From: an uncultured Myxococcales bacterium
GTDB lineage: Bacteria; Myxococcota_A; UBA9042
NCBI GenBank assembly: GCA_903955385.1
Contig: CAJBNH010000039.1
Span: 1 to 48,039 of the forward strand
Length of the DNA stretch: 48,039 bases
Direction of reading: 5' to 3'
A program made the position numbers and the translations under genes. The first letter of the stretch is position 1; the number at the start of each line of letters is the position of its first letter. Under the pieces are notes generated by a model. That model was not told the origin of the DNA. It did no database searches and saw only the letters and a program-made list of their open reading frames with translations. Below are positions 1-42,240 of the stretch, piece after piece.

Positions 1-612
1 CAGGCGTCCGAGCTGGCGATGACCGGCCTGCTCGTCACGGCGATGCTGCTGCTGAACGACTGGCTGACGGCAAAGGTCGTGTTCCGCGGCCTGAACTGCC
101 AGAAGGAAGTCAACGAAAATCAGAACGTTGCTGTCGCCGTGGGTCGGGCGGCCGGCGCCGTCGCGACGGGTCTGGTGATCCGCGGTGCGCTGGGGCACGA
201 CTCGGCGCTGCTGGACCGCATCCTGTGGGCCTTCATCGGTCAGGCGGCGCTGGTCGTCGTCAGCCTGCTGTACCAGAAGCTGACACCGTACGACGATCTG
301 GCCGAACTGAAGGGCAAGAACCTGGCGGCCGGTCTGCCGATCGCCGGCATCCTGCTGGCCGTGGGCATCACGGTCGAGGCGGTGCTGCACGGCGAGGGCG
401 CGGGCTGGGCGGCGGATCTGCAGTCGATGGGCGTCGATATGCTCGCCATGGTGGCTTTGCTGTTCGCAATGCGGGTGGCCACCGACCGCGTGATGCTCGG
501 TGGGGCGCGGTTGAAGGACGAGATCGTGCGCGATCGCAACGTCGGCGTGGGCCTGATCGAGGCCACCTCGTTCGTGACGGGTGCGGTGATCCTCGCGTTC
601 TTCTTGAGTTGA
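1..612 (+). CDS. DUF350-like inner-membrane protein, 5' end missing
   Basis: The reading frame is open from the first base, so the true start lies upstream; the first internal ATG is at 19. The visible 203 residues are almost entirely hydrophobic, with about six membrane segments. Three internal units each begin with Asn followed by a Gly/Ala-rich helix (NVAVAVGRAAG, NLAAGLPIAGI, NVGVGLIEATS). This is the spacing expected of tandem DUF350 (YjfL-type) domains, whose biochemical role is unknown. A charged loop with KGKN precedes the middle unit. The next supported genes run on the opposite strand, so this gene ends its transcription unit here. Family assignment is by recognition of the repeat pattern only. 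Confidence 0.7.
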   Translation, partial: QASELAMTGLLVTAMLLLNDWLTAKVVFRGLNCQKEVNENQNVAVAVGRAAGAVATGLVIRGALGHDSALLDRILWAFIGQAALVVVSLLYQKLTPYDDLAELKGKNLAAGLPIAGILLAVGITVEAVLHGEGAGWAADLQSMGVDMLAMVALLFAMRVATDRVMLGGARLKDEIVRDRNVGVGLIEATSFVTGAVILAFFLS

Positions 613-1851: not shown

Positions 1852-2649
1852 CTACTCCAACAGGCAGTCCTTCTTCCCGGCCTTGTAGGTGCATCGGCCG
1901 TACTGCTTGCATTCGACGGACTGCTCGCAATCGGCGGCGCTGCTCGGATGGCACCCCCCCTCGTAGTGCACGCCCCGCTCCCCCGCGCCGCCAAACCCGA
2001 CCACGTAGTGACATTTTCCTTGAATCTTGCATAGATCCGACCCGGCGCAGTCCGCGTCCGTCTGGGGGACGCATGCGCCACACGCGATGTCCGTCTGGGG
2101 GCACTTGCCCAGAACGAACGAGCACCGACCGTGAGTCTTGCAGACGACCGCCGCCTGGCAGTCCGCCAGCGATCCCGGCCTGCAGGTGCCATTGACGAAT
2201 GCGCAATTCCCGAGCTTCAGGCAGACGCCGGAAGCCGCACAAGCCGCGCTGTCGGGTCCTACCACGCAGTGGCCGTCTTGAAGCATGCACTTGCCCATGC
2301 TCTTCGGTCCCAGGCAGTTGGTGGATTGCTCGCAGTCGGCGTCCGTGAGCCCGATGCACTGCTTTCCGTCGCCGGCGAATTGGCACAAGCCGCAGCATTC
2401 GCAGTAGCCGACGGCGCAGCGGGGGTCGCGGGCCCACCCATCGTCGCCAGGACCGGTGTCATCGGCGTCCTGCGCAGCAACCGCATCGGTGTCCGGAACG
2501 ACGGCATCCGCACTGCCCAAACCGATGCTGTAGGGCGGAGCGGAGGCGCATCCCCAAGCGAAGACAAGCAGCCCGCCAAATGCTAGCCCCAACGCTAGCC
2601 TGGCAAGGAGCCGCGTCGGGACGCCGCACGCAGATACCTTCAACTGCAT
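1852..2649 (-). CDS. Cys-rich repeat lipoprotein
   Basis: 265 residues. A long signal peptide (about 1-33) ends in a lipobox-like VFAWGC with Cys34, so an outer-membrane or surface lipoprotein is likely. An Asp-rich linker (about 48-70) follows. The remainder is about six Cys-rich units of roughly 26-36 residues with the pattern DxDC-x2-S-x2-C-x4-G-x-C-x(5-7)-C. The regular cysteine spacing suggests stacked disulfide-bonded modules in an extracytoplasmic protein. It is clearly related in layout to the protein at 12881-13669. Function unknown; adhesion or extracellular binding is a guess from the architecture. Confidence 0.75.
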   Translation of the reverse strand: MQLKVSACGVPTRLLARLALGLAFGGLLVFAWGCASAPPYSIGLGSADAVVPDTDAVAAQDADDTGPGDDGWARDPRCAVGYCECCGLCQFAGDGKQCIGLTDADCEQSTNCLGPKSMGKCMLQDGHCVVGPDSAACAASGVCLKLGNCAFVNGTCRPGSLADCQAAVVCKTHGRCSFVLGKCPQTDIACGACVPQTDADCAGSDLCKIQGKCHYVVGFGGAGERGVHYEGGCHPSSAADCEQSVECKQYGRCTYKAGKKDCLLE

Positions 2650-2980
2650 CGTCGAATCACCCCGTCCTGAAGTCGCCCCATGTTCGGACCTCCAGCACGT
2701 CGGCCAACTCAGCAGCCGTCGGTCAATGACGGGTAGATCCTATGGACACCGCCCGCCACCGCGACGGGCTGCCGCGAAATCCCACTCGGGGGCCTTGCCC
2801 CCGACCCCCTGCGGCCTACGCGGCCGGCGCCAAGGACCTGCCGGCCCTTGGATCCCGCGGGGGTTTCCTTCTGGCCGCCCCAGGGCTGACAAGGCGGCGG
2901 TGGCTGGGCCACGCTGTGCCGGACGCGCGGGCTAGGGGCCCGTTGTTGCGTCCAAACGGTTCATCACCAAGGAGACAGCC
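2650..2980. other. Non-coding left flank of the IS110 gene, with strong hairpins
   Basis: No protein-like frame in 331 bases. It should hold the promoter of the minus-strand lipoprotein near 2650-2750, though I could not fix one. The half nearest the transposase is structured: a 7-bp stem CGGGGGC/GCCCCCG (2787-2803), a CCAAGG/CCTTGG stem (2830-2851), and GGCC-containing palindromes between them. IS110-family elements encode their bridge RNA in a non-coding flank, so this is one of two candidate sites. The motif GACCCC-TGCGGCCTACGCGGCC (2803-2825) has a close relative on the other side of the element (4711-4731). Confidence 0.4.
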
Positions 2981-4720
2981 GTGACCCAGCCGACCACCGC
3001 CACGCAGTCTAACGCCGCCATCCCAAGCCTGTACATCGCTCTCGACCTGGGCCGCTCGTCCTGGCAGGTCAGCCTGACCGATGGCGGCCAGAAGACCCGC
3101 GACGTCGCCGTCGACCGCTCCGACATCCGCGCCGGAAAGGCCGCCCTGCTCACCGAGATCGCCAAGGCCCGAGCCGCGTTCAGGCTGCCACCCGAAGCGC
3201 CGCTGCACGCCGTCTACGAGGCTGGCCGCGACGGCTTCTGGCTGGCGCGTTGGCTGCAGAGCCAGGGCGTGCAGTGCCTGGTCATCGACCCCAGCAGCAT
3301 CCTGGTCGACCGTCGCGCCAAGCACCGCAAGACCGACGCCATCGACGCAAGGGCGCTCGTCGCCCTGCTGATTCGCCACCACCGCGGCGAGAAGGCGTTT
3401 CGCCTAGTCGCCGTGCCCGACGTCGAAGACCAGGACGCCCGTGAGTTGGGCCGCGGCCTCGAGCGCCTGCAGCGCACCCGCCGCAGGTGGGCCGTGACCG
3501 TGCAGTCCATGCTGTTCGCGCACGGCATCGACCGCGGCTACGACAAGCGACTGCGCCAAGACCTCAGCGAACTTCGCACCGGCGACGACCGACCGCTCGG
3601 CGCTTCGCTGCGACACCAAATCGAGCTGCTGTGCGAGCAGATCGGGCGACTCGACACCGACATCGCCGCCTGCGAGCTCGAGCGCGACCAGCGCATCGCC
3701 AAGCCCAAGGCCGAGCTCGACAAGCGCGCCAATCACTTGGCCAAGCTCAACGGCATCGGCCCCGTCTGCGCGTGGACCATGGCCGCCGAGCTGGGCTGGC
3801 GCACCTTCGACAATGCCAAGCAGGTCGGGGCCTTCCTCGGCCTGGCGCCCACACCCTGGGCCAGCGGCAGCGTCGACCGCGAGCAGGGCATCAGCAAGGC
3901 TGGGTCGGACCGGCTGCGCGCGCTGATGATCCAGATCGGGTGGAGTTGGCTCCGCTACCAGCCCGAGAGCGCCCTGACCAAGTGGTTCCAGGAGCGCTTC
4001 GGCGAGGCCGGCAAGCGCTCCAGGCGCGTGGGCATCGTCGCCGTGGCGCGCAAGCTCGCGGTGGCGCTGTGGCGGTACCACACCGACGGGGTCATTCCCG
4101 AGGGTGCTCTGCTCAAGGACAAACCGTTCCCCATCCCGCGTCGGCGCCCTTGCGCTGAAGCTGTCGGCTGACGCGCCGCAAATCCGTCACCGTTCTGTAT
4201 GTTCATCCAGGAGGTCGAGCGAATCGCCATTCGCCACAGAACGCAGCCCGAAGGCTGCTGTCCGGTCGGGTCCGGACGTCCGTGCGTCGACGGGGTCGCC
4301 AACGCGATCGTCAGTTGTAGATTGGACGTCCGGCCCGCCGGTCCCCTACGCGCAAGTCGCATGTCGGATTGTGGCGTCGTGCCTGCGGGCCGGCGCCGGA
4401 TGGAAGTTCGAGGAGCGCCCAAGGTGGTGCCCTCGCTCAAGGGACCGGGCCCGAACTCGACAGTAGATCAGGTGGTTGCGAGCGTGGTAAATCGACGCTT
4501 GACTTCAAGGAGGGTCATGGAAGTCGACGCAAGCGACCAAGCCAGAGCATCCGAACCCCCGCGAGCCCCCTGCCCGTCCGCCACGGACCCTCCGAAGCCG
4601 CCGACAGGGTGTACTCCAGCGTCTACGCCCGCTCCAACCGGCCGTCAAGGCGTGTCTTTCTTGGTATGGTGATAAAGGGCCCCCGCCCAGCGCGCCTCCT
4701 GGACGCCCCGGACCCCGTGG
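2700..4720 (+). mobile_element. IS110-family insertion sequence; ends not resolved
   Basis: One complete IS110-type transposase gene (2981-4171) with about 240-330 bases of non-coding DNA before it and about 550 after it. IS110 elements lack conventional terminal inverted repeats and make no reliable target duplication, so the given limits are only the outer bounds set by the neighbouring genes. The shared GACCCC..GGCCTACGCGGCC motifs at 2803-2825 and 4711-4731 lie in the same orientation on the two sides and could be part of the target or of a host repeat. Which flank carries the bridge RNA is undecided. Confidence 0.55.
2981..4171 (+). CDS. IS110-family transposase (DEDD recombinase)
   Basis: 396 residues from a GTG start with a strong AAGGAGA ribosome site at 2969-2975. 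The RuvC-like N-terminal domain shows the DEDD residues: Asp22 (LYIALDLGRS), Glu80 (AVYEAGRDGFW), and Asp119 and Asp122 (KTDAIDARAL). The C-terminal Transposase_20 domain starts near 250 with LNGIGPVCAWTMAAELG and includes GLAPTPWASGS (the usual catalytic Ser-Gly region) and ISKAGSDRLRALMIQ. Length and motif order match an intact, probably active enzyme. The family inserts by bridge-RNA-guided recombination. It resembles the subgroup with EAGRDGFWL and a long 3' non-coding end. Confidence 0.93.
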   Translation: MTQPTTATQSNAAIPSLYIALDLGRSSWQVSLTDGGQKTRDVAVDRSDIRAGKAALLTEIAKARAAFRLPPEAPLHAVYEAGRDGFWLARWLQSQGVQCLVIDPSSILVDRRAKHRKTDAIDARALVALLIRHHRGEKAFRLVAVPDVEDQDARELGRGLERLQRTRRRWAVTVQSMLFAHGIDRGYDKRLRQDLSELRTGDDRPLGASLRHQIELLCEQIGRLDTDIAACELERDQRIAKPKAELDKRANHLAKLNGIGPVCAWTMAAELGWRTFDNAKQVGAFLGLAPTPWASGSVDREQGISKAGSDRLRALMIQIGWSWLRYQPESALTKWFQERFGEAGKRSRRVGIVAVARKLAVALWRYHTDGVIPEGALLKDKPFPIPRRRPCAEAVG

Positions 4721-4721
4721 C
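4172..4721. other. Non-coding right flank of the IS110 gene
   Basis: 550 bases without a credible reading frame; the ORFs here have random Arg/Pro-rich composition. The first roughly 340 bases, up to the AAGGAGGGTCATGGAA stretch (about 4508-4523), read like the conserved 3' non-coding part of this IS110 subgroup. They contain short self-complementary segments such as GCCCGAAGGCTGC near 4246 and GTCCGGACGTCC near 4270. This is the second candidate location for a bridge RNA. Beyond about 4525 the sequence is C-rich with a GACCCC-GTGGCCTACGCGGCC copy (4711-4731), and I see nothing else in it. Confidence 0.4.
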
Positions 4722-4845
4722 CTACGCGGCCCACTCCCCGTCCGCCCGGTCCCAGCCGTCCCCATCGTCCTGGGGCGCCGGCTCGACCGGAAACAGGTCC
4801 TCGGGCGGTCCCCGGATCGCCACGATGTCCTCAGGCACCGACCGG

Positions 4846-4899
4846 CAAGCCCGATGCGCCCGAATACATGGAGGGATGCAGCAGCGGGCGCGGCAGTAC
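4846..4899. repeat. 54-bp insert, copy B, in the IS91-type relic
   Basis: Aligns without gaps to 4974-5027 at 128 bases distance, with about 48 of 54 bases identical. The shared core is GCGCCCGAATACATGGAGGG. On the minus strand it reads LPRPLLHPSMYSGASGL, sequence not expected in the transposase family and placed just after VQRFLTRGLV. Confidence 0.6.
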
Positions 4900-4973
4900 G
4901 AGACCGCGCGTGAGGAACCGCTGCACCTCCGCCTTGTCCTGAACCGCCGCAACGATCCGACGCCGACCACCGT

Positions 4974-5027
4974 CAAGCCCGCGGCGCCCGAATACATGGA
5001 GGGAAGCAGCCGCGGGCGCGACAGTAC
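4974..5027. repeat. 54-bp insert, copy A, in the IS91-type relic
   Basis: Second copy of the sequence at 4846-4899, same orientation. On the minus strand it reads LSRPRLLPSMYSGAAGL and replaces the expected CPxC part of the transposase between FDALV and GGRRRIVAAV. The 74 bases between the copies remain transposase-like, so this is two separate inserts of one short element, or a conversion event, and not a duplication of the gene segment. Confidence 0.6.
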
Positions 5028-5580
5028 CAGGGCGTCGAATTGGAACGCCCGGCGCAGACAAACTGCCCAGGTCATTCGCTGCGCTGTCGCCTCGGGCGTC
5101 TCCACCCGCGCCTCGCCCGATGTGCCCGACGTGCCCGCCGCACCCGCGTCCTTCTTGCGCCGCCGAGGAGCCTTCGCTCCCGCCGCAACCACCTGCGCCC
5201 GCAACGGAGACGCCGGGGCAAAACATCCGTGATATCGCAGTAGCGCGCGACGAGGCAGGGGAATTTGCGCGAGCAATCTGAGTACCAGGTCCCGCGGCGA
5301 CATCACGACGGCCCGCACACCACCGGCCCATTCGTTCTTCAACGTGATGCGGATCTTGCCGTCGGCCGTCTCCTCCACCCGATGCGCCGCCACCGCAGGC
5401 CTACAGACATACCGGCAAAGCTTCTCCAGCCCCGACCGGTTCAGTTCGCCCACCCGGGTATTGGCGTGCAGCGAGAACCCCAACGCCTGCGCGCAATTCC
5501 GCCCGTGAGGCTTGGGTTGCACCGGACCCTTGCCGACCGCCAGCCGCTTGCCGGGTGTCGATTGTCGGGAGCAGGTCCGG

Positions 5581-38019: not shown

Positions 38020-39342
38020 TTACGGGCAATACTGCGAGATGTCCGGGCAGCAGTCGCCGTATTGCGCGCACTGCGTGTCGCAGTAGCAGGCACCGGACTG
38101 GCCGCCGCACGCGCCCTGGCACGAATCGCCGCCGGGGGGGGTGCCGCCGCCGCCGCAGTACTGCTCGTAGTCTGCGCAGCAGTCGCCGTAGTCCACGCAA
38201 CCGGCGTCACAGTAGCAGGCGCCCGACGCCGGCTGGCTGTCGCACACGCCCTGGCACGAGTCGCCGCCACCGCCGCCGCTGACGCAGCCCTGAGCCTGGG
38301 CGCAAGAGGCAAGCGCGTCGTAGCCCGCCTGAGCCGCCGCGGTGCCCTGATCATAGCAGGCCTGATAGCACGAGCCGTCCGGGCAGGTGTCGAAGCAGCT
38401 GAAGATGCCCTTGCACGCCGCGCTGTTGAAGCAGCCGCTGTATTCCGTCGCGCACTTCTGGGCGACGCACGCCATCACCTCATCGCAGTCCTGAGGGCAG
38501 GTCTGCGCGGTTTCATCGGCGCCGCAGGTGCCGTCGCCGCACGAACCGGTGCTGCCGCCGCAGTCGGCCGGGCAGTTCACGGCCGTCTCGCCGGACTCGC
38601 AGTTGCCGTTGCCGCACTGGGTGATGGTGCTGCAGTCGGCCGCGCAGTTGCTCTTGGTCTCGCCGGACTCGCAAGTGCCGTTGCCGCAGACGGGGCCGGT
38701 GGAGCCGCAGTCGGACGCGCAGTTGGCCTTGCTCTCGCCCGACTCGCACTTGCCGTTGCCGCAGACGGGGCCGGTCGTGCCGCAGTCCTGCGGGCAGGTC
38801 GACGACGTCTCGTTGGTGTCGCACTTGCCGTTGCCACACTGGTTGGCGGCCCCGCAGTCGGCGGCGCAGTTGGCTTGGGTCTCGCCGGTCTCGCACTTGC
38901 CATCGCCGCAGGTGGGGCCCTGACCGATGCAGTCGGTGTTCTGGGCGCACATCAGCAGGTTGGTCAGCGCCTGGGGCTTGCCGGACGTGTCGTAGCACGC
39001 GAGGACGCAGGCCTGATTGCTCAGGGGGCAGGCATCCATGCAGGTGATGCCCTTGGTGCAGGACGCATCGCTCTTGCAGCCGTCCCACTGCGACGCACAG
39101 GCGGTCTGGACGCACTTCAGGGAAGCCGTCGGGCCTCCCGGTGTGGTGTCCTGCGGCGTGGTCGAGTCACCCGGCGTCGTCGTGTCCTTCGTGTCGGTGA
39201 CGATGGTGGTGTCGCCCGTCGTCTGGTCGTTCGTCACGTCGGTGACAAAGCCGCCGCCGTAACCGCCGGCCGAGCTGCCGCAGCCGCTGAAGAGGGCCAC
39301 GGAGAGGGCACAGAACGCCGCACACTGGGTGAATCGCTGCAT
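38020..39342 (-). CDS. Cys-rich lipoprotein with CGNG repeats and two somatomedin-B-like domains
   Basis: 440 residues. Lipobox LSVALFSGCGSS (Cys21), a Thr/Asp linker (about 34-70), and a region of paired cysteines. Six to seven tandem units of about 20 residues follow with the pattern CGNGxC-x-xGE-x4-C-x2-DC (CGDGKCETGETQANCAADC and similar). Another helical Cys region precedes two C-terminal modules SCQGVC...CYCDAGCVDYGDCCADYEQYC and SCQGAC...CYCDTQCAQYGDCCPDISQYC. Their CxC-x3-C-x(5-6)-CC-x5-C spacing is that of somatomedin-B domains, small disulfide knots known mainly from animals but present in delta-like bacteria. Surface binding or adhesion is an inference. Confidence 0.8.
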   Translation of the reverse strand: MQRFTQCAAFCALSVALFSGCGSSAGGYGGGFVTDVTNDQTTGDTTIVTDTKDTTTPGDSTTPQDTTPGGPTASLKCVQTACASQWDGCKSDASCTKGITCMDACPLSNQACVLACYDTSGKPQALTNLLMCAQNTDCIGQGPTCGDGKCETGETQANCAADCGAANQCGNGKCDTNETSSTCPQDCGTTGPVCGNGKCESGESKANCASDCGSTGPVCGNGTCESGETKSNCAADCSTITQCGNGNCESGETAVNCPADCGGSTGSCGDGTCGADETAQTCPQDCDEVMACVAQKCATEYSGCFNSAACKGIFSCFDTCPDGSCYQACYDQGTAAAQAGYDALASCAQAQGCVSGGGGGDSCQGVCDSQPASGACYCDAGCVDYGDCCADYEQYCGGGGTPPGGDSCQGACGGQSGACYCDTQCAQYGDCCPDISQYCP

Positions 39343-39424: not shown

Positions 39425-39551
39425 GCCCGAAATGGAGGTCGTTTGATCGCCGACAGGCCCGCAGACCCGCTGCCTTGCACGCGATCGACTTGCAATCGCC
39501 GTGGGGTGCCCGCACAGTCAGCGACGTCGCTTCCCTGCCCGCGAGGTCCCT

Positions 39552-40496
39552 GTGATCGTTCGACCGTCGCCCCGTCTTGCCGTCTGGTTCACCCTGTCGT
39601 TGACCGCCGCCGTCTGGTCCGCGACCGCGATGGCCGCCGATGCACCCGCCGCCCCGGGACCTGCCCCGCTGCCGGGGACCGAGGACCCCGCATTCCACGA
39701 GGCCACCGGAATCCGCAAGCGTCAGGCCGTGTCCCTGACCGGTGTCGCCGTGCCGACAAGCGAAGGCAGCCGTGCCGACGCGTTGGCTGCGGTGATGAAG
39801 CGCATCGCGTGCACCTGCTACAAGGACGGCGACCTTGTCATCAACACGGACAAAAGCGTGCTGCCCCAGGAGTGCGGGTGCCCGCAGGCGCAGATCGTTC
39901 GGGAGGACCTCGAGCGCAGCCTCGCGCCCCTGTCCACGCCCCAGCTGGCGGACAAGCGGCAGGTGGCTGAGGCGCTGGAAGGCACGTTCGTGCCCCTGCG
40001 TCCCGAGTACGAGCGGGTGTTCCGCTATCCGCAGGCAGACTACCTGTGGTTCATGGAGCATGTCCGCTGCGTGTGTGAGGGCTGCAAAGCCACGGTTTTC
40101 TTCAGCAAGTGCCAGCTGACCTGTACGCCCGCGATCCTGTACAAGCTGCGAGCGCGGGTGTTCATGGCGATGGGGTTCTCCCGCGACGAGCTCGTGGACT
40201 ACTACCTGGCTGAGTACAACGCCGACAAGCCGCCCCGCGAACAGGCGAGCCGCGACTGGCTGCTGCCCGAGAAGCAGAAGGACTACGGCTGGTTTGTTCC
40301 TGCCGTCGTCGTCCCCGGCGGCGCGCTGCTGTTGCTGTTCCTGCTGGTCGGGTGGGTGCGCAAGGGGCGGCGCGACAAGGCGACCAAGGATACGGTCGCG
40401 GCCGCTGCGGCGCCGGACACCCCCGCGGAGGCTGCGACGCACGCGCGAACCCGCGAGCGGCTGCGCGACGAGCTGGACAGCGACACCGAGTGGTGA
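39552..40496 (+). CDS. CcmH-like protein with duplicated Cys domain
   Basis: 314 residues from a GTG with GAGG upstream; signal or N-terminal anchor (LAVWFTLSLTAAVWSATAMA). Two Cys-rich units occur: residues 83-130 (C87, C89, C108, C110) and 168-222 (C173, C175, C178, C187, C191; HVRCVCEGCKATVFFSKC). The second unit leads into a helix pair (FMAMGFSRDELVDYYLAEYN) that matches the post-cysteine helices of CcmH (usually GKSxxEIxxYxVARYG). A membrane segment follows near 248-267 (VPGGALLLLFLLVGWVRKG), as in CcmH. CcmH-type proteins reduce apocytochrome c. The usual LRCxxC is altered, so the function is uncertain. Confidence 0.6.
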   Translation: MIVRPSPRLAVWFTLSLTAAVWSATAMAADAPAAPGPAPLPGTEDPAFHEATGIRKRQAVSLTGVAVPTSEGSRADALAAVMKRIACTCYKDGDLVINTDKSVLPQECGCPQAQIVREDLERSLAPLSTPQLADKRQVAEALEGTFVPLRPEYERVFRYPQADYLWFMEHVRCVCEGCKATVFFSKCQLTCTPAILYKLRARVFMAMGFSRDELVDYYLAEYNADKPPREQASRDWLLPEKQKDYGWFVPAVVVPGGALLLLFLLVGWVRKGRRDKATKDTVAAAAAPDTPAEAATHARTRERLRDELDSDTEW

Positions 40497-40508: not shown

Positions 40509-41501
40509 TCAGTCTTCCAGACGATACACCTTGACTTCCGAACATTTGCCCGCAATGACGGCCACCACGACGTGGGCGATTCCCGGGTACAGGGGCTGAC
40601 CGTCCGGGGCTGCTCCGGCCAGGTCGTCGGCCGAAAAGCGTGCGTCGGTGTCGACGTGCGAGTGCCAGAACGCGACCAGCGACCGCCCCTGCTCGGACTG
40701 CTGCGCCACGACCCGGGTGTCCAGTTGCCAGGCCGTCCGCGAAGTGCGGGGATGGCGTTCTGGATCCGCAACATGGCGCTCGTCCTGCAGATTCTTCGTC
40801 GGCACGACTTCGAGCCGCCCTGCCCCGTTTCGCACCAACAGACCGCAGGCCTCGGCGGGCGCGCGGGTCAGACACTCGTGCTGCAGCGCCAGCATCGCGC
40901 CGGCGTCGGCCAGCAGCTCGCCTTGCAACACCGCGTCGGCCCGCACCGTGCCAACCGGCTGCGGAGGCTGGGGTTTTCGCGACAAGCGGGGCAGGACCGG
41001 GTCCGTCCAGTCCCAGCACAGCGACGAGGGCAGCGGCGCCAGCTCAAACACGTCGTCCAGCAAGAGCCCGGCCGCCGCAGCGCCCACCGCCACCGCGTCG
41101 ACCGTTCCAGCGGGATGGCCAACGTCCCAACGCAACGTGCAGACCGTGGGCGAGGTGTCCGCCGAGGTCAGCCGCACGACGTCGACCGTCATGCCAAACC
41201 CGCGCTGGGCAAAGAAGAAGTGCGCGGCCGGAGGAACCGCTTGCCCGGGTCCATCGATCAACTGCACTTCGGGGTCCAGGTCGGCCAAGGCCAGCAGTTG
41301 GGCCTGCGGAATCGCCACACGTCCCAGTCCGGCACCGACCAGATAGCGGGCGGCCACCGCAGCAGCCTCCGCAGCGACCGGCGAGCCGTCGTGGCCGAAC
41401 ACGGCCGCCCAGCCGTGCAGTGCTGCCTGGCCGTGGAAAGCCGCGCCCGGCACCAGCAGCTGCCGACCATAGCGCGCGAAGACCTGGCGCGGGTCACGCA
41501 T
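40509..41501 (-). CDS. Degenerate E1-like domain fused to a JAMM metalloprotease
   Basis: 330 residues. The C-terminal domain (about 200-330) is a JAB/MPN+ isopeptidase: Glu in APAEACGLLVRNG, then WHSHVDTDARFSADD with zinc ligands His280, His282 and Asp293 and Ser290 in exact HxH-x7-S-x2-D spacing. The N-terminal domain (1-180) looks like ThiF/MoeB (FARYGRQLLVPGAAFHGQAAL at the start; a late GAAAAGLLLDDVF helix), but the nucleotide loop GxGGLG is replaced by GHDGSP, so it should be inactive. It overlaps the true E1 gene upstream by eight bases. Likely acts with it on a small ubiquitin- or MoaD-like carrier; no carrier gene is adjacent. Confidence 0.8.
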   Translation of the reverse strand: MRDPRQVFARYGRQLLVPGAAFHGQAALHGWAAVFGHDGSPVAAEAAAVAARYLVGAGLGRVAIPQAQLLALADLDPEVQLIDGPGQAVPPAAHFFFAQRGFGMTVDVVRLTSADTSPTVCTLRWDVGHPAGTVDAVAVGAAAAGLLLDDVFELAPLPSSLCWDWTDPVLPRLSRKPQPPQPVGTVRADAVLQGELLADAGAMLALQHECLTRAPAEACGLLVRNGAGRLEVVPTKNLQDERHVADPERHPRTSRTAWQLDTRVVAQQSEQGRSLVAFWHSHVDTDARFSADDLAGAAPDGQPLYPGIAHVVVAVIAGKCSEVKVYRLED

Positions 41502-42240
41502 GGACCCTCCCGCCGGTCAGCCGTGACGCTGCGCAAGGGCAGTCGCCGGCTGGGGAAACCGCCGTGCGGTGCACGCCGCGCGGGTCCAGCCGCAGCAACG
41601 CCGACTCGGCCGGGTCCGCCTGCCCCTGCAGCACCGCCAAGAGCGACCGCGCGGCCCAAGCACCGACCTGCCCCACTGCGGGTCCCATCACGCCGGCGAT
41701 GGCGCAGGTGCCGACGCACTCCGGCGGGGGCGGTTCCTCGAACAGGCAACGGTAGCAGGCGCCGTGGGGCGTGACGGTGAACAGCTGGCCCTTGCGCTGG
41801 ATGGCGGCGGCGATCGTGGCGACTCGGGTGCGCCCGTCCCGTCCGGGACGGATGGCCCAGTCATTCACCAGGAATTTCGAGAGCGTGTCGTCGGTCCCTT
41901 CGACCACGGCGTCGCAGCCCCGCAGCACCTCGTCGAGGGTGTCGGCCGTCACTCGGGCGACCACGCGTTCGATGACCAGCCCCGGCACCCTGGACTGCAG
42001 CCAGCGCGCCAGCGCGTCGACCTTGGGAACGCCCAAATCGCCTTGTCCGAAAGCCACTTGTCGATGCAGATTGGCGAGTTCGACGACGTCGGGGTCCACC
42101 AGACGCAGCCGCTTCACCCCGCCCAGCGCCAACGTCCAAGCAGCCGGCACGCCCAAACCGCCGCAGCCCAACACGGTCACACAGGTCTGGTCGAGCGCGC
42201 GTCGGGCAGGCTCGGACCACACCGGCGCCGCGCTGGTCAT
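41494..42240 (-). CDS. E1-like adenylating enzyme (ThiF/MoeB/HesA family)
   Basis: 248 residues. Nucleotide loop GCGGLG (25-30), acidic Asp49/Asp51 in RLVDPDVVELANLHRQ, Lys73 in GVPKVDAL, and GTDDTLSKFLVND are intact. CYRC and a terminal CPC could bind zinc, and ECVGTCAIAGVMGPAVGQVG has candidate catalytic Cys. It starts directly at the Rossmann fold and lacks the N-terminal RYxRQ segment that MoeB/ThiF use to contact ATP in the partner subunit. That segment is on the next gene's protein. Its start overlaps the VTT gene by four bases (ATGA). Role: sulfur-carrier or ubiquitin-like protein activation. Confidence 0.88.
   Translation of the reverse strand: MTSAAPVWSEPARRALDQTCVTVLGCGGLGVPAAWTLALGGVKRLRLVDPDVVELANLHRQVAFGQGDLGVPKVDALARWLQSRVPGLVIERVVARVTADTLDEVLRGCDAVVEGTDDTLSKFLVNDWAIRPGRDGRTRVATIAAAIQRKGQLFTVTPHGACYRCLFEEPPPPECVGTCAIAGVMGPAVGQVGAWAARSLLAVLQGQADPAESALLRLDPRGVHRTAVSPAGDCPCAASRLTGGRVHA

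Follow-up and report, generated by a model that had tools for sequence, protein, structure and literature searches.

Can a bacterium divide one E1-type activating enzyme between two genes, with one product carrying the active site and the other, itself inactive, completing it? The question is raised by two overlapping genes on a contig of an uncultured Myxococcales bacterium (NCBI GenBank assembly GCA_903955385.1, contig CAJBNH010000039.1, positions 1 to 48,039), a stretch of 48,039 nucleotides referred to here as the window. Myxococcota are soil and water bacteria, and the genome around the window (G000) is a 5.3-Mb draft with 95.6% completeness. To our knowledge, the pairing of an active E1 subunit with a dead helper has so far been reported mainly from the eukaryotic SUMO and NEDD8 E1s. 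A recent review of E1 enzymes lists MoeB and ThiF under homodimers and mentions heterodimers only for eukaryotic E1s (PMC12355090). We found no bacterial heterodimeric E1 in the open-access literature, an earlier mention not being excluded. A preliminary description of the window had proposed just such an enzyme, with a helper subunit that carries its own deconjugating or processing peptidase. If true, a bacterial split E1 whose helper has been pared down to the finger and a few elements of the fold would open to experiment an old question, the purpose of the inactive subunit.

An intact E1 and a helper-peptidase fusion in overlapping genes

Both genes lie on the minus strand and share 8 bases (41494..41501). 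The first (41494..42240) encodes a catalytic E1 subunit of 248 amino acids, assigned to the ThiF/MoeB family by Pfam (ThiF, PF00899, E 3e-50) and lacking an N-terminal RYxRQ segment; the protein starts 24 residues ahead of its GCGGLG nucleotide loop (residues 25-30; 42151..42168, minus strand), which is conserved in the E1 alignment. Indexing of its residues placed GCGGLG at 25, followed by D49, D51, R60, K73, D117 and the pair C162/C165, and the protein meets the criteria of the ThiF/MoeB superfamily, namely GxGGxG, three ATP-site residues (Asp, Arg and Lys) and the Asp conserved in VEGTD. Eleven positions were invariant over 26 E1s (G25, G27, G30, D49, N57, L58, R60, K73, D117, C162 and C165).

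The second gene (40509..41501, minus strand), delineated as an open reading frame and by its AlphaFold2 model, encodes a fusion of 330 amino acids that joins a degenerate ThiF helper domain to a JAMM peptidase. The helper domain (residues 1-178; 40968..41501, minus strand), an inactive adenylation or pseudo-ThiF domain by profile and structure matches, carries RYGRQ at residues 10-14 (41460..41474, minus strand), and the second Arg of this motif, R13, is the proposed arginine finger. GHDGSP, at residue 36, stands where a nucleotide loop would be. The JAMM/MPN+ domain (residues 190-330; 40512..40934, minus strand) was recognized by Pfam over residues 205-318 (Prok-JAB, E 3e-14) and meets the JAMM/MPN+ criteria, E...HxHx7SxxD plus the fold, with the catalytic Glu at E217 (40851-40853, minus strand) and the metal motif HSHVDTDARFSADD (H280, H282, S290 and D293; 40623..40664, minus strand), which is identical in all 17 family members aligned. 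Seventeen further genomes of the window's family encode the fusion along its whole length, with up to 49% identity, so it is not a chance product. The preliminary description had listed the E1's intact GCGGLG, Asp51, Arg60 and Lys73 and missing RYxRQ, the fusion's RYGRQ, GHDGSP loop and four JAMM residues (His280, His282, Ser290 and Asp293) and the 8-base overlap, all of which were borne out by residue indices and reading-frame coordinates.

The helper domain is a degenerate ThiF fold

The same description had suggested a ThiF relationship for the first 180 residues of the fusion and proposed a profile comparison as the check. Scanned as a single sequence, the N-terminal half gave no Pfam match, to ThiF or otherwise, and a single-sequence search of the N-terminus returned weak matches only (Uba4, E 0.026; MoeB, E 0.31). 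A profile built from 28 helper domains, in turn, aligned with the rhodanese-E1s of the same genomes over 60 columns (hhalign probability 97.6, E 4.3e-12) and with the E1s that lack a finger at E 4.4e-9; likewise, the helper profile of the window's family (A4) matched the N-terminus of rhodanese-E1s in family genomes at E about 1e-10. These profiles agreed with the structure that AlphaFold2 predicted for the fusion (pLDDT 89.5, pTM 0.80). Its top Foldseek match in the PDB was E. coli ThiF (E 1.8e-5), and VIA comparison of residues 13-178 gave APPBP1 (Z 10.4, rmsd 3.2, 141 residues aligned), MccB (Z 10.3) and MoeB (1jwa_B; Z 9.7, range 13..179 on 14..239) as the best ThiF-type structural matches. 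APPBP1 is the inactive subunit of the NEDD8 E1. Residues 190-330, compared in the same way, matched JAMM proteins at Z 12-13 (2kks, 13.0; PfJAMM1, 12.3). The profile and structure matches together settle the ThiF identity of the N-terminus despite the missing Pfam hit, confirming the suggested relationship: judged by profiles and predicted structure, residues 1 to about 180 are a real, degenerate ThiF/MoeB domain. The RYGRQ arm (residues 10-15) had pLDDT <50 in the model of the isolated chain, as expected of a segment meant to lie on a partner; such predicted disorder is by itself no proof.

What the helpers have kept is very little. Among 23 non-redundant helpers (<70% mutual identity), some as little as about 20% identical to that of the window, only R13 and G58 were invariant, followed by Q14, Q25, A57 and A144. 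The sequence criterion for a heterodimeric E1, a replaced nucleotide loop (here GHDGSP) beside a retained and invariant finger (R13), is thus met. The smallest helpers measure 92 amino acids. A helper of 120 amino acids (L147; model pLDDT 81.7) aligned end to end with Uba4 (Z 9.5), MoeB (8.7), ThiF (8.6), SAE1 (7.5) and APPBP1 (7.4), and according to the model both ends of the fold are retained and the middle is deleted. In the same line, MoeB-type models matched the sequence of a 200-amino-acid helper (L087) in two stretches, with the middle likewise missing.

Relatives encode a sulfur carrier beside the pair

To place the pair in context, we scanned genome contigs with a carrier profile, which yielded 80 named loci; an earlier contig scan with the fusion itself as query had produced no match. 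In 12 family genomes, a ThiS-family carrier of the 92-amino-acid class (PF02597, E 1e-12) directly precedes the fusion gene, mostly in the order E1, carrier, fusion. These carriers end in ...PAIAGG plus 0-3 residues, and in carrier-bearing relatives with a linked E1 the carrier gene occupies the site at which the E1 and fusion genes overlap in the window. Outside the family, the order is E1, carrier, helper, JAMM in L043-L048 and cysteine synthase, E1, carrier, helper, cysteine synthase, JAMM in other Myxococcota loci, where the second synthase gene often parts helper from JAMM. In the Nannocystaceae-type loci, the synthases scored above the cut-off for TIGR01139 (cysK) and TIGR01136 and just below it for TIGR01138 (cysM); the order in the other Myxococcota is the same, assigned by sequence, and the window has no cysteine synthase. 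TusA has its own gene in L043 and is fused to the E1 in L047. The preliminary description had noted the absence of an adjacent ubiquitin-like carrier and proposed searching homologous loci for a nearby beta-grasp protein. The absence holds for the window and fails for most relatives: the search placed a ThiS-family carrier beside the fusion in the 12 family genomes and beside E1 and separate helper in further Myxococcota loci.

With its carrier and cysteine synthases, the parent operon points to a sulfur-carrier, CysO-like pathway and not to protein conjugation, and we propose that it works like CysO/CysM/Mec+ cysteine biosynthesis, the chemistry being inferred. In this proposal, the E1 would adenylate the roughly 92-amino-acid CysO/MoaD-like carrier at its C-terminal GG, a persulfide donor, in some loci TusA, would convert the adenylate to a thiocarboxylate whose sulfur a cysteine synthase would take, and the JAMM would re-expose the GG end, either from a cysteine adduct, as Mec+ does, or from a short encoded tail. 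JAMM trimming of encoded carrier tails is known from HcyS/HcyD and QbsE/QbsD. Like the CysO-MoeZ-CysM-Mec+ system of M. tuberculosis (PMC3227635), the parent loci combine a GG carrier, an E1, a cysteine synthase and a JAMM in one operon. They differ in that an inactive ThiF helper accompanies the Myxococcota E1, which has neither finger nor rhodanese, in that many loci have two cysteine synthases, and in that the window's family has a helper-JAMM fusion without adjacent synthases and the window genome no carrier. The carrier criterion of that system, a GG-ending ThiS-type protein beside E1 and JAMM, is accordingly failed by the window and its genome and met in the 12 family genomes and in other Myxococcota. 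ThiS/MoaD, E1-like, JAB and cysteine synthase genes also stand together in the operon types 4b/4c that Iyer et al. described in 2006 (PMC1779556); their E1 is described as rhodanese-fused, unlike the split E1 of Myxococcota, and the passages searched mention neither a split E1 nor an inactive E1 partner.

The scan also brought up natural fusions that link the fingerless E1 to sulfur transfer. L047 encodes an E1-TusA fusion (1140-2027; PF01206, E 9e-15), L045 a similar one by sequence likeness (4281-5168), and L048 an E1-carrier fusion with the tail GGWY (2568-3554). Separately, we observed that the carriers of L024-L047 (for example L028, 1789-2067) vary in what follows GG: C is commonest, and R, V, G, AD, AHG, WR, CFK and WYHGGRDVA also occur. 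The genome-encoded GG-Cys end resembles the CysO-cysteine adduct itself. Nine loci (L061-L066, L027, L028 and L037) encode a conserved protein of about 150-170 amino acids with a shared ...RAFSQ.AGRY... stretch directly before, and often overlapping, the E1; it has no Pfam match and is itself preceded by a glycosyl hydrolase 31-type gene in several genomes. A sulfate-type symporter is a further neighbour in relatives' loci. Two loci are recorded under unexpected titles, L079 as Klebsiella pneumoniae and L124 as a Bifidobacterium breve MAG; the former title is surely wrong, since L079 has the gene layout of G001, a genome of the window's family.

The E1 has outlived its carrier in the window genome

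A ThiS-family search of the window genome found no CysO-type carrier, and the same absence in G003, G006, G010 and G019 makes five carrier-less genomes, none of which can run the parent pathway as such, a point against our proposal. What the window genome does encode is a ThiS, located next to a ThiG-like gene, as well as a rhodanese-E1, a fused MoaD-MoaE and a TcdA-like protein; beyond the ThiS and ThiF families, these names are presumptive and rest on our own reading of the sequences. In the E1 tree, the window's E1 is nearest to that of the carrier-bearing L028 (99/80), so the carrier losses were not one event.

Is the pair, then, a relic that is decaying after the loss of its carrier? This is a possibility we take seriously without thinking it likely. 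The missing carrier speaks for it, as does the state of the JAMM, whose conservation is lower than in carrier-bearing relatives. It was less conserved than the helper in 5/5 carrier-less genomes, the reverse of what was seen in 12/12 carrier-bearing ones. Complementarily, pN/pS in a carrier-less sister pair (L038/L039) increased from 0.22 in the E1 through 0.45 in the helper to 1.00 in the JAMM, compared with 0.23 (helper) and 0.19 (JAMM) in a carrier-bearing pair. As it comes from one pair and a hard JAMM alignment, this contrast is a pointer and no proof. Decay of the E1 is a different matter: in the window, both frames are intact and neither the E1 active site nor the JAMM motif has lost a residue, the E1 pN/pS in L038/L039 is 0.22 after carrier loss, and E1 identity to relatives is unchanged by that loss (0.55-0.58 vs 0.54; for the window, 0.557 vs 0.539 in carrier-bearing genomes). 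Carrier-less genomes thus show an E1 outliving its carrier, and the shifts in conservation tie the JAMM to the carrier and place the helper nearer the E1. Going by these comparisons, the JAMM of the window genome may be under weaker constraint or retargeted, for example to the GG-S junction of MoaD-MoaE. The C-terminal tail of ThiS was considered as a JAMM substrate in these genomes and rejected; all five ThiS proteins end exactly in VGGG.

The proposed arginine finger sits on the partner

We then asked how consistently finger and E1 are separated. None of 48 Myxococcota E1s of this type has an in-frame RYxRQ upstream, and each starts at most 25 residues before the loop; the set comprises 18 E1s from the window's family, 7 from neighbouring families, 15 from further helper-bearing Myxococcota and 8 from Nannocystaceae-type loci. 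One regex match to RYxRQ upstream of the L087 E1 falls in untranslated sequence. The criterion of a homodimeric MoeB/ThiF enzyme, an own RYxRQ in the catalytic subunit, is consequently failed by the window's E1 and the 47 others. Rhodanese-E1s of the same or related genomes keep RYxRQ/H directly before the loop (one reads KYARH), and RYxRQ/H also stands before the loop in the E1s encoded next to related carriers in Hakubella and in a Phycisphaerales MAG. Both Hakubella E1s group with the finger-bearing rhodanese-E1s in the E1 tree (100/98). Support for separating all fingerless E1s from the rest is weak (81/47), so the tree allows a single loss of the finger without proving it.

A finger-bearing helper was present in the locus or genome for 39 of the 48 E1s, as a separate gene of 90-200 amino acids (L043-L048, L076 and L086-L154) or, in the window's family alone, fused to the JAMM. 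Separate helper genes in the other families indicate that the JAMM fusion is secondary and the helper's role independent of the JAMM. No homologous E1 paired with such a helper retained its own RYxRQ; the preliminary description had named such retention as something that would have refuted its proposal. Within the family, 18/22 genomes have the fusion, E1 and fusion are jointly absent from 3/22, and an E1 without fusion occurs only in one 810-contig draft. These counts cover related genomes, not independent events, and drafts may hide genes.

These observations bear on a different account, which we judge improbable: the E1 would be a fingerless homodimer, and the degenerate ThiF domain would assist the JAMM as an accessory, for example as a platform on which the carrier is held while being trimmed. 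The nine E1s without a helper come from one fragmented draft (G020) and from the eight Nannocystaceae-type loci (L107, L112, L131, L132, L134, L141, L148 and L106), in which no helper gene was found in the locus; in six Nannocystaceae genomes, the helper profile significantly matched solely full-length E1-type ORFs of about 400 amino acids. The helper is thus dispensable in one lineage. Moreover, MoeB R14 and ThiF R11 act across the dimer, yet neither is catalytically essential, and TcdA has no finger (PMC13139853). Both points count against a heterodimer, as does the location of the E1 gene away from the fusion in genus g5, and the fusion of helper and JAMM in the window would suit an accessory. 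Most Myxococcota helpers, however, are not fused to the JAMM and often stand apart from it; the helper is more constrained than its fused JAMM after carrier loss; and a mere platform would not need R13, which stayed invariant while most other positions drifted.

Overall, we hold that the two genes probably encode a heterodimeric E1 in which R13 of the fusion completes the ATP site of the E1, a reading that builds on observed sequences, conservation and gene order and on modelled single-chain folds; the dimer and the geometry of the finger are inferred. The co-occurrence of E1 and fusion in family genomes favours it, as do the cysteine synthases, ThiS-family carrier, TusA and JAMM of the operon. 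The shorter protein would be the active adenylation subunit, and the N-terminal half of the fusion the inactive one, reduced to what pairing and the arginine finger need, with R13 reaching into the ATP site of its partner. The initial proposal of a bacterial heterodimeric E1 with a peptidase-carrying helper is hence supported by a ThiF-type helper, a finger found only on the partner and the invariance of R13. The confidence given to each alternative does not imply that all are mutually exclusive with a heterodimer.

Such a pair would share the fold, the active-site residues of the catalytic subunit and an RYxRQ supplied by the other subunit with the MoeB, ThiF and Uba4 homodimers, in which each subunit is active and has its own finger, whereas the Myxococcota pair splits these roles over two genes. 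With eukaryotic APPBP1-UBA3 and SAE1-SAE2 it would share one active and one inactive adenylation subunit; APPBP1 is the best ThiF-type structural match of the helper and, together with SAE1, is among the matches of the minimal helper. In contrast to these, it has no FCCH, catalytic-cysteine or ubiquitin-fold domain, its helper is cut to 90-200 amino acids, and it sits in a sulfur-carrier context in another lineage, presumably by independent origin. Yeast Tcd1-Tcd2 (PMC13139853) is likewise a ThiF-type heterodimer whose subunit without a working active site lends the arginine finger, but it modifies tRNA, has no carrier or JAMM and keeps both subunits at full length. We incline to the wider view that Myxococcota evolved a heterodimeric E1 apparently independently of eukaryotes, in which an inactive subunit miniaturized to as little as about 92 amino acids gives the finger in trans, and that one family fused this subunit to a deconjugating or processing peptidase, uniting carrier activation and release in one complex. 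The genomes offer a natural deletion series: E1s with their own finger, separate helpers of 200, 120 and 92 amino acids, a JAMM-fused helper, and none in Nannocystaceae.

Present-day substrate of the window's pair

In the proposed sequence of events, the helper became fused to the JAMM in the window's family and the window genome lost the carrier gene. The continued conservation of the E1 makes it most likely that the enzyme serves one of the carriers left, either ThiS or the MoaD part of MoaD-MoaE, this substrate being inferred. A more specific version, in which the JAMM of the fusion cuts the genome's MoaD-MoaE between GG and S and the E1 then activates MoaD in a molybdenum cofactor role, strikes us as doubtful. 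The genome does encode MoaD-MoaE as one chain, with ...PAASGG before and SGRAQ after the presumed cut, and moaA lies 4 kb away; M. tuberculosis MoaX needs a cut between Gly82 and Ser83 (PMC4326299), and D. radiodurans DRJAMM cleaves MoaD-MoaE (PMC8832034). Long ThiS frames of MoaD-MoaE size, however, also occur in family genomes without the JAMM fusion (G005 and G014), which is why we rate this version so low, and in genomes with a dedicated carrier; the rhodanese-E1 (L001) could serve MoaD, and constraint on the JAMM drops instead of rising.

A ubiquitin-like conjugation or anti-phage system (Bil, CBASS Cap2/Cap3 or type 6A), suggested by the presence of E1 and JAMM and by weak PADLOC E1-E2 and JAB matches, is scarcely credible and was set aside on gene context: the PADLOC matches cover E1/JAMM superfamily parts only, the genes around the relatives encode cysteine synthases, TusA and a sulfate-type symporter, and no E2 or RING gene was found among the neighbours scanned, so that the E2 criterion of Cap2/Cap3/Bil failed.

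Two neighbours of the pair were observed in passing. The convergent neighbour of the fusion (39501-40496, plus strand) encodes a membrane protein that looks CcmH-type and has paired Cys motifs and no Pfam match. Beyond it, 38020-39342 (minus strand) encodes a cysteine-rich protein that has two somatomedin-B domains in addition to repeated units resembling CGNGxCExGETxxNCPxDC.
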